A stretch of DNA of 64,000 bases, taken from positions 1,017,501-1,081,500 of the forward strand of contig JAWNZC010000105.1 of the NCBI GenBank assembly GCA_035771165.1, in the 5' to 3' direction. Every line of letters starts with the position of its first letter. The first letter of the stretch is position 1. A model generated the notes under the pieces. That model saw only the letters and a list, made by a program, of their open reading frames with translations. It ran no database searches and had not been told where the DNA came from. Both the position numbers and the translations under genes were made by a program. This stretch comes from Paragorgia papillata. Its lineage: Eukaryota > Cnidaria > Anthozoa > Scleralcyonacea > Coralliidae. Below, piece by piece: positions 2,836-5,387 of the stretch.

Positions 2836-2954
2836 GGGCCCATGCGCACTTCACGCTATCTGAATGTACTTCACCGATGCCGTCCCACATGCGGTTGTCA
2901 CCGACGATCGCATGTGTATAAATAATTGATGAAATTCATTCAGATTGTTCCAAG

Positions 2955-2998
2955 CTACACTGATGAGCTGTTTGTACAGCGAAACACCGTGTCTGTAG
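2955..2998 (+). ncRNA. Type-I hammerhead ribozyme (inverted unit)
   Basis: Plus-strand copy: helix I CTACA / TGTAG, core CTGATGAG, stem II CTGT...ACAG (one extra T in the loop), CGAAAC, a minimal helix III, and cleavage expected after GTC. It faces the opposite way from the rest of the array. Confidence 0.8.
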
Positions 2999-3006
2999 AT
3001 TGAACT

Positions 3007-3150
3007 ATATATATATATATATATATATATATATATATATATATATATATATATATATATATATATATATATATATATATATATATATATATATATATAT
3101 ATATATATAGTTCAATCTACATTTTATATATATATATATATATATATATA
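3007..3150. repeat. (TA)n between inverted and direct retrozyme units
   Basis: A long TA run (about 3007-3108), a 15-bp scrap of the unit start (GTTCAATCTACA), then more TA. It forms the centre of a large inverted repeat made by the head-to-head units. Confidence 0.9.
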
Positions 3151-3157
3151 GTTCAAT

Positions 3158-3200
3158 CTACAGACACGGTGTTTCGCTGTACAACAGCTCATCAGTGTAG
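3158..3200 (-). ncRNA. Type-I hammerhead ribozyme, unit 1
   Basis: Reading the minus strand: CTACA (helix I), CTGATGAG, CTGT-TGT-ACAG (stem II), CGAAA, CACCGTG (a two-pair helix III with a 3-nt loop), TC, TGTAG (helix I). All conserved core positions are present. The very short helix III is typical of retrozyme hammerheads that work best as dimers. Confidence 0.88.
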
Positions 3201-3434
3201 CTTGGAACAATCTGAATGAATTTCATCAATTACTTATACACATGCGATCGTCGGTGACAACCGCATGTGGGACAGCATCGGTGAAATACATTCAGATAGC
3301 GTGAAGTGCGCATGGGCCCAGAGTGCTCAAACTTCCACAAGGGTAGTGAGCGTTGCATTATCGCTAATAGGTACCCACGGCAACTTCGCAGAGTGCTCAA
3401 CAACACCGAAGTGAAGGAGCGTACATAGTTCAAT

Positions 3435-3477
3435 CTACAGACACGGTGTTTCGCTGTACAACAGCTCATCAGTGTAG
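3435..3477 (-). ncRNA. Type-I hammerhead ribozyme, unit 2
   Basis: Core identical to unit 1, exactly 277 bp downstream. Confidence 0.88.
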
Positions 3478-3711
3478 CTTGGAACAATCTGAATGAATTT
3501 CATCAATTACTTATACACATGCGATCGTCGGTGACGACCGCATGTGGGACAGCATCGGTGAAATACATTCAGATAGCGTGAAGTGCGCATGGGCCCAGAG
3601 TGCTCAAACTTCCACAAGGGTAGTGAGCGTTGCATTATCGCTAATAGGTACCCACGGCAACTTCGCAGAGTGCTCAACAACACCGAAGTGAAGGAGCGTA
3701 CATAGTTCAAT

Positions 3712-3754
3712 CTACAGACACGGTGTTTCGCTGTACAACAGCTCATCAGTGTAG
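3712..3754 (-). ncRNA. Type-I hammerhead ribozyme, unit 3
   Basis: Core identical to unit 1, at the same 277-bp period. Confidence 0.88.
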
Positions 3755-3988
3755 CTTGGAACAATCTGAATGAATTTCATCAATTACTTATACACATGCG
3801 ATCGTCGGTGACAACCGCATGTGGGACAGCATCGGTGAAATACATTCAGATAGCGTGAAGTGCGCATGGGCCCAGAGTGCTCAAACTTCCACAAGGGTTG
3901 TGAGCGTTGCATTATCGCTAATAGGTACCCACGGCAACTTCGCAGAGTGCTCAACAACACCGAAGTGAAGGAGCGTACATAGTTCAAT

Positions 3989-4031
3989 CTACAGACACGG
4001 TGTTTCGCTGTACAACAGCTCATCAGTGTAG
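3989..4031 (-). ncRNA. Type-I hammerhead ribozyme, unit 4
   Basis: Core identical to unit 1, at the same 277-bp period. Confidence 0.88.
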
Positions 4032-4265
4032 CTTGGAACAATCTGAATGAATTTCATCAATTACTTATACACATGCGATCGTCGGTGACAACCGCATGTG
4101 GGACAGCATCGGTGAAATACATTCAGATAGCGTGAAGTGCGCATGGGCCCAGAGTGCTCAAACTTCCACAAGGGTAGTGAGCGTTGCATTATCGCTAATA
4201 GGTACCCACGGCAACTTCGCAGAGTGCTCAACAACACCGAAGTGAAGGAGCGTACATAGTTCAAT

Positions 4266-4308
4266 CTACAGACACGGTGTTTCGCTGTACAACAGCTCAT
4301 CAGCGTAG
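4266..4308 (-). ncRNA. Hammerhead ribozyme, unit 5 (helix I variant)
   Basis: The core is intact. One base of the helix I strand differs (CTACG in place of CTACA before CTGATGAG), which weakens one pair of helix I to a wobble. Confidence 0.8.
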
Positions 4309-4443
4309 CTTGGAACAATCTGAATGAATTTCATCAATTACTTATACACATGCGATCGTCGGTGACAACCGCATGTGGGACAGCATCGGTGAAATACATT
4401 CAGATAGCGTGAAGTGCGCATGGGCCCAGAGTGCTAGTTCAAT

Positions 4444-4479
4444 CTACAGACACGGTGTTACAACAGCTCATCAGTGTAG
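4444..4479 (-). ncRNA. Dead hammerhead copy, unit 6
   Basis: A 7-nt deletion removes most of the GAAA strand and one side of stem II, so this copy should not cleave. It follows the shortened unit. Confidence 0.75.
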
Positions 4480-4713
4480 CTTGGAACAATCTGAATGAAT
4501 TTCATCAATTACTTATACACATGCGATTGTCAGTGACAACCGCATGTGGGACAGCATCGGTGAAGTACATTCAGATAGCGTGAAGTGCGCATGGGCCCAG
4601 AGTGCTCAAACTTCCACAAGGGTAGTGAGCGTTGCATTATCGCTAATAGGTACCCACAGCAACTTCACAGAGTGCTCAACAACACCGAAGTGAAGGAGCG
4701 TACATAGTTCAAT

Positions 4714-4756
4714 CTACAGACACGGTGTTTCGCTGTACAACAGCTCATCAGTGTAG
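4714..4756 (-). ncRNA. Type-I hammerhead ribozyme, unit 7
   Basis: Intact core. This unit and the next carry shared substitutions elsewhere in the repeat (for example GATTGTC in place of GATCGTC), marking a sub-family. Confidence 0.86.
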
Positions 4757-4990
4757 CTTGGAACAATCTGAATGAATTTTATCAATTACTTATACACATG
4801 CGATTGTCGGTGACAACCGCATGTGGGACAGCATTGGTGAAGTACATTCAGATAGCGTGAAGTGCGCATGGGCCCAGAGTGCTCAAACTTCCACAAGGGT
4901 AGTGAGCGTTGCATTATCGCTAATAGGTACCCACAGCAACTTCACAGAGTGCTCAACAACACCGAAGTGAAGGAGCGTACATAGTTCAAT

Positions 4991-5033
4991 CTACAGACAC
5001 GGTGTTTCGCTGTACAACAGCTCATCAGTGTAG
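4991..5033 (-). ncRNA. Type-I hammerhead ribozyme, unit 8
   Basis: Intact core, 277 bp after unit 7. The unit ends in a short (AT)n run at about 5256-5274. Confidence 0.86.
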
Positions 5034-5387
5034 CTTGGAACAATCTGAATGAATTTTATCAATTACTTATACACATGCGATTGTCGGTGACAACCGCATG
5101 TGGGACAGCATTGGTGAAGTACATTCAGATAGCGTGAAGTGCGCATCGGCCCAGAGTGCTCAAACTTCCACAAGGGTAGTGAGCGTTGCATTATCGCCAA
5201 TAGGTACCCACGGCAACTTCACAGAGTGCTCAACAACACCGAAGTGAAGGAGCGTACATATATATATATATATATTGGCGTGAAATTTATCAAGGAAGAA
5301 GGAATTGGTAGGCATTTGGGATGGTTACTACTTACTATTTCGAAAAAGGAGGACCGACTTATTTCTAGAATATTAAATCTTTGTATG

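Follow-up and report, generated by a model that had tools for sequence, protein, structure and literature searches.

What kind of element is a 277-bp tandem repeat that carries a ribozyme motif in nearly every unit, and how did its copies come to lie where they do? We asked this of an array in the cnidarian Paragorgia papillata, within a 64,000-nucleotide stretch of contig JAWNZC010000105.1 (assembly GCA_035771165.1, positions 1,017,501 to 1,081,500, forward strand), hereafter the window. A first-pass annotation, made from the letters alone, had compared the repeat with the published concept of the retrozyme, in which tandem non-coding units are transcribed, self-cleaved and circularised. We conclude that the array is very probably a metazoan non-LTR retrozyme (LTR, long terminal repeat) of a cnidarian. 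This kind of element is already known, and the new part is its insertion anatomy. Most of the observed copy ends lie just past the ribozyme, in TA repeats and beside a possible helper element, which hints at the route by which they were copied into the genome.

Tandem Repeats Finder and blastn placed eight 277-bp tandem units on the minus strand at 3148-5260, one of them truncated and another carrying a 7-nt deletion. Tandem Repeats Finder reported a period of 277 bp over 3148-4435 (99% matches) and over 4459-5260 (98%). One unit used as a blastn query recovered all eight direct copies, with an alignment of 165 nt for one and the 7-nt deletion in another, and also an inverted partial copy, aligned at 2835-2993. 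Unit position 1 is defined here as the first base after the predicted hammerhead cut. On this numbering the array falls into two blocks, and three further pieces of the unit lie outside it:

3148 to 4434, minus strand: left block of the array, with a 5'-truncated start at unit position 113/114, four full units and an end at position 15 in (TA)n.
4435 to 5260, minus strand: right block of the array, three unit lengths minus the 7-nt deletion, beginning next to (TA)n at position 13 and meeting the left block at position 14.
2835 to 3008, plus strand: inverted partial copy, unit positions 120-277 and then 1-15, flanked on both sides by (TA)n; its hammerhead, at 2960-2993, is intact.
3107 to 3121, minus strand: 15-nt fragment, unit positions 1-15, whose 5' edge is the predicted ribozyme cut and whose 3' edge enters (TA)n.
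51134 to 51186, minus strand: solo decayed copy, unit positions 233-277 followed by the helix I strand without 2 nt, ending at position 10 and flanked by (TA)n.

The solo copy, an addition to the copies listed in the first-pass annotation, consists of the hammerhead only, the rest of the unit being gone. The same annotation had described the units as far more alike than those of a decaying satellite. This has to be qualified by block: the left block is nearly uniform, its four full units showing 0, 1, 1 and 0 base differences from the reference unit (itself one of the four), and the right block has 5-7 mismatches per unit and, in one unit, the 7-nt deletion as well. The blocks also differ in type: the right block has 52T, 154C and 191A and the left block C, T and G at those unit positions, of which only 154 and 191 are readable in the truncated left unit. 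The change of unit type coincides with the join of position 14 to position 113/114. In the sense direction, a three-unit insertion is followed directly by a 5'-truncated insertion of about 4.6 units. The unit has a GC content of 47.3%, and the longest sense-strand stop-to-stop frame in the array is 89 amino acids, open in the left block and reduced to 44 or 51 amino acids in the right block. No LTRs were found within 1-8000, where the direct repeats of at least 60 nt that touch the array were the array itself and the TA tracts.

On the sense strand the motif reads GTTC-CAAG-CTACA / CTGATGA / GCTGT-TGT-ACAGC / GAA / ACA-CCG-TGT / C / TGTAG-ATT-GAAC. This is a type I hammerhead, with the core CUGANGA ... 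GAAA ... NUH, three helices and an open helix I. Helix I had been given as CTACA/TGTAG; that stem is present but is only part of the helix, which, on our reading of the sequence, extends past a CAAG/ATT internal loop into a distal GTTC/GAAC stem. Both this internal loop and the UGU loop 2 are present, and helix III consists of three pairs with a three-base closing loop. The helix I wobble that the first-pass annotation gave for one unit is CTACG for CTACA, at 4271-4303. The array ribozymes are as follows:

3155 to 3203, minus strand: type I hammerhead, with the predicted cut between 3163 and 3162.
3432-3480, 3709-3757, 3986-4034, 4263-4311, 4711-4759 and 4988-5036, minus strand: further array hammerheads, found with covariance model R1 (see below).
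4441-4482, minus strand: damaged hammerhead, the eighth array ribozyme, with 7 nt lost.

Over the whole window, Rfam gave no match at the gathering score, which is a search threshold and not a defining property. Below that score, a search of 2701 bases returned Hammerhead_3 on six units (16.1 bits, E 8.2), and a search of 91 bases returned Hammerhead_HH9 (18.3 bits against a gathering score of 52, E 0.015). Because Rfam gave no gathering-level match, we built a separate covariance model, R1, from 18 phage-contig hammerheads, none of them from the window, and ran it on both strands of the 64-kb window. A pattern search had supplied at least 120 phage stretches, and 92 type I-like motifs were found in 67 of 120; length and stem filters left 22 motifs, of which the 18 of equal length 54 were used and 4 dropped. 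R1 returned ten matches up to E 10. Six array units scored 38.9 bits (E 4.7e-8) and a seventh 34.5 bits (E 8.1e-7), the inverted copy scored 33.8 bits (E 1.3e-6), the solo copy 25.0 bits at 51134-51182 (E 3.3e-4), and the array unit with the 7-nt deletion 17.1 bits (E 0.054). These scores are partly built in, because the training core pattern also fits the window motif: R1 is independent in sequence source, not in core pattern, its E-values are rough, and stem pairing among its members is there by construction because the motifs were selected by their stems. With a descriptor that combines the hammerhead core and helices I, II and III, eight intact sites were found in the window, seven on the minus strand and one on the plus strand. 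On 200 dinucleotide shuffles the descriptor found a site in one at the loosest setting and in none at two stricter settings.

Taken together, Tandem Repeats Finder, blastn and the descriptor confirm the 277-bp hammerhead array on the minus strand, and R1 (E 4.7e-8 to 1.3e-6) upholds the statement that the core is kept in seven of the eight direct copies and in the inverted copy. The covariance check named in the first-pass annotation had a divided outcome, since Rfam stayed below its gathering score, but the phage-trained model, at E 4.7e-8, was not at chance level.

The array can be compared with the metazoan non-LTR retrozymes of coral, mussel and axolotl (Cervera and de la Pena 2020, PMC7229834; this source and PMC4918200, PMC8490949, PMC8969392 and PMC7761336 are cited throughout for the sections available). 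Shared features are the type I hammerhead, the lack of LTRs (here within 8 kb), the self-paired RNA and the presence of a Penelope-like element (PLE), and the 277-bp unit fits their tandem units of about 170-400 nt. The match to the retrozyme concept is therefore supported by unit size, tandem layout, self-pairing and the adjoining PLE. The GC content of 47% lies under the 50% stated in PMC7229834 and over the 45% of its figure legend. The hammerhead is predicted to be hidden in the circle here, whereas the available sections of PMC7229834 report hiding for some mussel circles only. Plant LTR retrozymes share the concept of a self-cleaving non-coding retroelement but carry their hammerheads, of type III, within LTRs; their target duplications are 4 bp long and their circles measure 600-800 nt (PMC4918200, PMC7229834). 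Newt and schistosome hammerhead satellites, including W-elements, are likewise built of tandem hammerhead-bearing units, each a few hundred bp long (PMC7229834, PMC8490949). Schistosome repeats include tRNA (PMC4918200), whereas ARAGORN, at its bacterial setting, found no tRNA gene in the 64-kb window, and scanning the unit with simple patterns revealed neither an A-box nor a B-box of RNA polymerase III.

The cnidarians named in the main text of PMC7229834, as far as available, are stony coral, jellyfish and sea anemones; that text contains no mention of octocoral, soft coral, inverted, AT-rich or dinucleotide, and the available part of PMC4918200 none of octocoral, dinucleotide or microsatellite. 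The open-licence literature yielded no related report on octocoral hammerhead ribozymes. Nor, by titles and the starts of abstracts, did it yield a report of fixed retrozyme 3' ends or (TA)n targeting, a search that did not cover subscription papers and supplements. Exact ribozyme patterns had no match in viral contigs (two patterns) or in bacterial and archaeal genomes (one pattern), and we give these misses little weight because such collections are not animal genomes.

Where do the copies end? Exact matching placed the 3' end of the array at unit position 15, followed by (TA)n, and the 3' end of the inverted copy at the same position, again followed by (TA)n. The right block ends at position 14 and then passes into the left block. 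Counting the 15-nt fragment, four of the five 3' ends lie at unit position 14-15, and three of the four that run into (TA)n do so at position 15, the solo copy being the exception. The four ends fall just past the complete hammerhead, because positions 9-12 are its last strand, that of the distal helix I stem. Because of overlap with TA, each end could be off by as many as 3 bases. On its 5' side the array starts at unit position 13 and is preceded by (TA)n. The tracts around the array are:

2704 to 2835, no strand assigned: TA-rich tract that borders the inverted copy on its left.
3006 to 3150, no strand assigned: (TA)n tract across which the inverted copy, on one side, and the 15-nt fragment and the array, on the other, face each other with their 3' ends.
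5258 to 5275, no strand assigned: (TA)n tract where the array has its 5' end.

The unit contains 28 ends of alternating-TA runs, six of them of runs of at least 3 bases, and one of these runs, ending at position 205, exceeds in length the run at position 15. Because there are many such run ends, TA homology may help but does not alone pick the site. Were the choice limited to those six sites, the chance that three ends fall together would be about 1 in 36 for independent ends; all three lie at one locus and may not be independent. Pure TA tracts of at least 16 bp number ten in the window (373 of 64,000 bases); the two retrozyme loci account for eight of them, and the tracts at 21632 and 47928 are without a copy. 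The tracts may have grown after insertion, and any target-site duplications would be hidden because both retrozyme loci lie in (TA)n. Twin priming was considered for the inverted retrozyme copy and rejected, as its 3' end faces that of the array across the central (TA)n and twin priming joins 5' ends. Two separate insertions fit better.

The PLE that adjoins the array consists of two pieces, followed by a candidate ribozyme of its own:

1640 to 2461, plus strand: 3' part of the PLE, with the end of the reverse transcriptase region and a GIY-YIG endonuclease (Pfam E 1.6e-5).
1403 to 1645, minus strand: inverted upstream reverse transcriptase piece of the PLE, adjoining the plus-strand piece, found by tblastn.
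2599 to 2651, plus strand: candidate minimal PLE hammerhead, CTGAAGA...GGAAACGTC at 2608-2642.

The defining feature of PLEs, a reverse transcriptase with a C-terminal GIY-YIG endonuclease, is present at 1403-2461. The best homologue of 1640-2461 has about 60% identity among the 120 listed of 325, and the organism-named homologues among those 120 come from Actinostola, Montipora, Oculina and Pocillopora, all hexacorals. In tblastn, homologue P0072 aligned over residues 2-73 on the minus strand (E 7e-14) and 181-379 on the plus strand. Both pieces were matched by 18 of the 120 homologues; 94-109 residues are missing between them in 17 of the 18, and in P0054 the pieces adjoin. The inverted piece had no Pfam match, RVT_1 included. 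We regard this PLE copy as broken because of an in-frame stop at 2381-2383. The split itself, with an inverted upstream piece and a downstream piece in sense, is what twin priming would be expected to leave. A GC-rich 16-bp repeat, in about eleven copies, lies beside the PLE at 1102-1276.

Helix I of the candidate PLE hammerhead, ATTCATCAG/CTTGTGAAT, has nine positions, of which seven are Watson-Crick pairs, one is a wobble and one a mismatch. Its pattern, written after the site was seen, matched once in the window and in none of 200 shuffles, and the site had no match in Rfam or with R1. In viral contigs there was one pattern match for PLE relatives, and none was confirmed. About 30 nt past the candidate cut the DNA is AT-rich and leads into the tract that borders the inverted retrozyme copy. 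PLEs with minimal hammerheads were reportedly described by Cervera in 2014 and by Lunse in 2017. Minimal hammerheads lacking helix III are on record for PLEs (PMC7761336), and PLEs of this sort (PMC11167929, PMC7761336) share with the array the tandem layout, the 5'-truncated second copy and the AT-rich targets; their copies also end a fixed distance downstream of the hammerhead. The retrozyme unit differs from them in its fuller hammerhead and in having no PLE sequence by blastn. In PLE insertions, a full copy is followed by a tandem, usually 5'-truncated second copy (PMC8969392). The purified protein of a lizard PLE cuts AT-rich DNA on both strands, and its reverse transcription starts inside the RNA, which explains the genomic 'tail' (PMC11167929).

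A potential model joins these observations. As in published relatives, the array would be transcribed, each hammerhead would cut between C17 and unit position 1, and the 277-nt monomers would be ligated into circles by a host RNA ligase. With a primer in (TA)n DNA, reverse transcription of the retrozyme RNA would then begin at unit position 14-15, where the complete hammerhead has its 3' edge. Tandem copies would result when a multimer, or the circle over several turns, is copied, and the 5'-truncated left block would stem from a second insertion placed against the 3' edge of the earlier one. The likely helper would be the GIY-YIG/reverse transcriptase machinery of a PLE. Judging from the junctions, we consider target-primed copying from (TA)n probable. 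The assignment of PLE machinery as the helper is tentative, and is suggested by the adjacency, the target type, the tandem layout and a published proposal (PMC7229834). A fuller version, rather unlikely to hold in every part, is that the hammerhead doubles as a retrotransposition landmark: PLE machinery would start at the 3' edge of helix I, insertions would end with a complete ribozyme in (TA)n, circles would be copied several times to give arrays, the 15-nt fragment would be an abortive run-off at a self-cleaved end, and retrozymes would be PLE parasites with their own fixed internal start.

The predicted circular fold of the unit reaches -90.0 kcal/mol, while 200 shuffles average -68.7 (z -4.9). 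The helix III stretch ACACCGTGT would be a palindrome but for one mismatch at its centre, and pairing between two motifs is therefore possible. Dimers are reported for amphibian hammerheads (PMC7229834), and by analogy the motifs here could also pair as dimers.

Several results weigh against the retrozyme model or parts of it. The antisense circle is also well paired, at -76.6 kcal/mol (a value without shuffles of its own). In the isolated 58-nt motif an alternative fold reaches -10.8 kcal/mol against -8.8 for the hammerhead, and the helix III pair probability is 0.02; for the circular unit, the hammerhead fold is 6.7 kcal/mol less favourable than the preferred non-hammerhead fold. The energy models behind these values omit tertiary contacts. 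The missing gathering-level match in Rfam belongs here too. As to the junctions, all come from two loci and those of the main locus are possibly not independent events, the solo copy ends at position 10 and not at 14-15, and the inverted copy combines both block types, with 154C and 191G. A PLE helper has its own difficulties. The retrozyme unit and the PLE here share no blastn match, and because that copy is broken its adjacency to the array is possibly chance. In the lizard PLE, moreover, the RNA requires the first 172 nt of its own open reading frame (ORF), ribozyme mutants still insert, and reverse transcription starts some 85-92 nt past the cut, compared with 14-15 in the retrozyme (PMC11167929).

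These results bear on four other explanations. The motif might be a chance or dead look-alike of a hammerhead, to which the sub-gathering Rfam matches and the non-hammerhead lowest-energy fold lend some support; with R1 reaching E 4.7e-8 and no shuffle of 200 giving a site at strict descriptor settings, we consider this very improbable. An array of satellite DNA could also arise by unequal crossing-over, with extrachromosomal circular DNA reinserted at (TA)n breaks and the hammerhead a leftover, without reverse transcription. Reinsertion of a DNA circle gives a whole number of units with both borders at the same position, and the right block has such a form (position 13-14); units are more alike within a block than between blocks, and circular-DNA reinsertion has been discussed for hammerhead-bearing schistosome satellites (PMC8490949). 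However, such reinsertion predicts neither that the inverted copy and the 15-nt fragment share end position 15 nor that the fragment starts exactly at the ribozyme cut. With the core intact in seven of eight array units and in the inverted copy, we hold a satellite origin to be improbable.

The other two explanations accept a retrozyme and change how it moved or was laid down. A retrotransposon of the long interspersed nuclear element (LINE) type could have moved it instead of a PLE: the 15-bp target-site duplications of Nematostella repeats have been likened to those of LINEs (PMC4918200), 5' truncation is common to LINEs and PLEs, and the PLE examined in vitro depends on RNA that carries its own ORF sequence (PMC11167929). 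Yet insertion in (TA)n with a tandem 5'-truncated second copy is the layout described for PLEs (PMC8969392), a PLE adjoins the array, and no LINE domain was found in the 19 stretches scanned with Pfam, a scan that is not exhaustive in a window with 65 ORFs of at least 110 amino acids. We regard a LINE as an unlikely helper. Alternatively, the two blocks could be one insertion, and the unit without 98 bp the product of a plain deletion in a single eight-unit array. A 1-bp overlap (A) at the join would permit a microhomology deletion, but one of its edges must hit position 14, beside the site of the other 3' ends, and it must sit exactly at the unit-type change (154 and 191 are readable on both sides, 52 on one side only). 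A plain deletion is possible, although we lean against it.

The enzyme that spreads metazoan retrozymes and the route from circle to array are left open in PMC7229834, which proposes PLEs as a candidate because of shared type I hammerheads, tandem copies and host genomes. The junctions described here lead to a testable prediction for coral genomes, namely that retrozyme 3' ends should be concentrated just beyond helix I, within AT-rich DNA or (TA)n. Such clustering, if true, would explain why complete ribozymes are kept in arrays, and the 3'-end mark would separate retrotransposed copies from amplified satellite.

Other mobile and repeated DNA shares the window. ORFs of a BEL/Pao-type retrotransposon lie just beyond the array at 5533-10772 (Peptidase_A17, E 4e-39, in 8426-9787). 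At 45684-46239 there is an unrelated tandem dimer, also of 277 bp, which was rejected as a retrozyme: the period is coincidental and the unit has no blastn match there. In each copy of the dimer there is a 21-bp inverted repeat without mismatches, its arms 4 bases apart (45882-45927 in the first). An element at 29027-44205 has 493-nt terminal inverted repeats that are 100% complementary, and because its ends are identical a recent insertion is suggested. A Pox_A32-type ATPase is encoded at 33509-34093, and one long ORF has an endonuclease VII domain; three further long ORFs have no Pfam match. We read the element as Polinton/Maverick-like. About 10 kb of repeats at 53150-63407, mostly with a 161-bp period or multiples of it, look by eye like decayed C2H2 zinc-finger units. 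Finally, 23350-25884 holds an intact 844-amino-acid hAT-like ORF (DUF4371, hAT dimerisation), whose closest homologues with an organism name are those of the octocorals Dendronephthya gigantea (65% identity) and Xenia (46%). From this one ORF the host would probably be an octocoral, within a well-supported placement among cnidarians. A further homologue has 90% identity, and Hydra, insects, sea cucumber and others follow.

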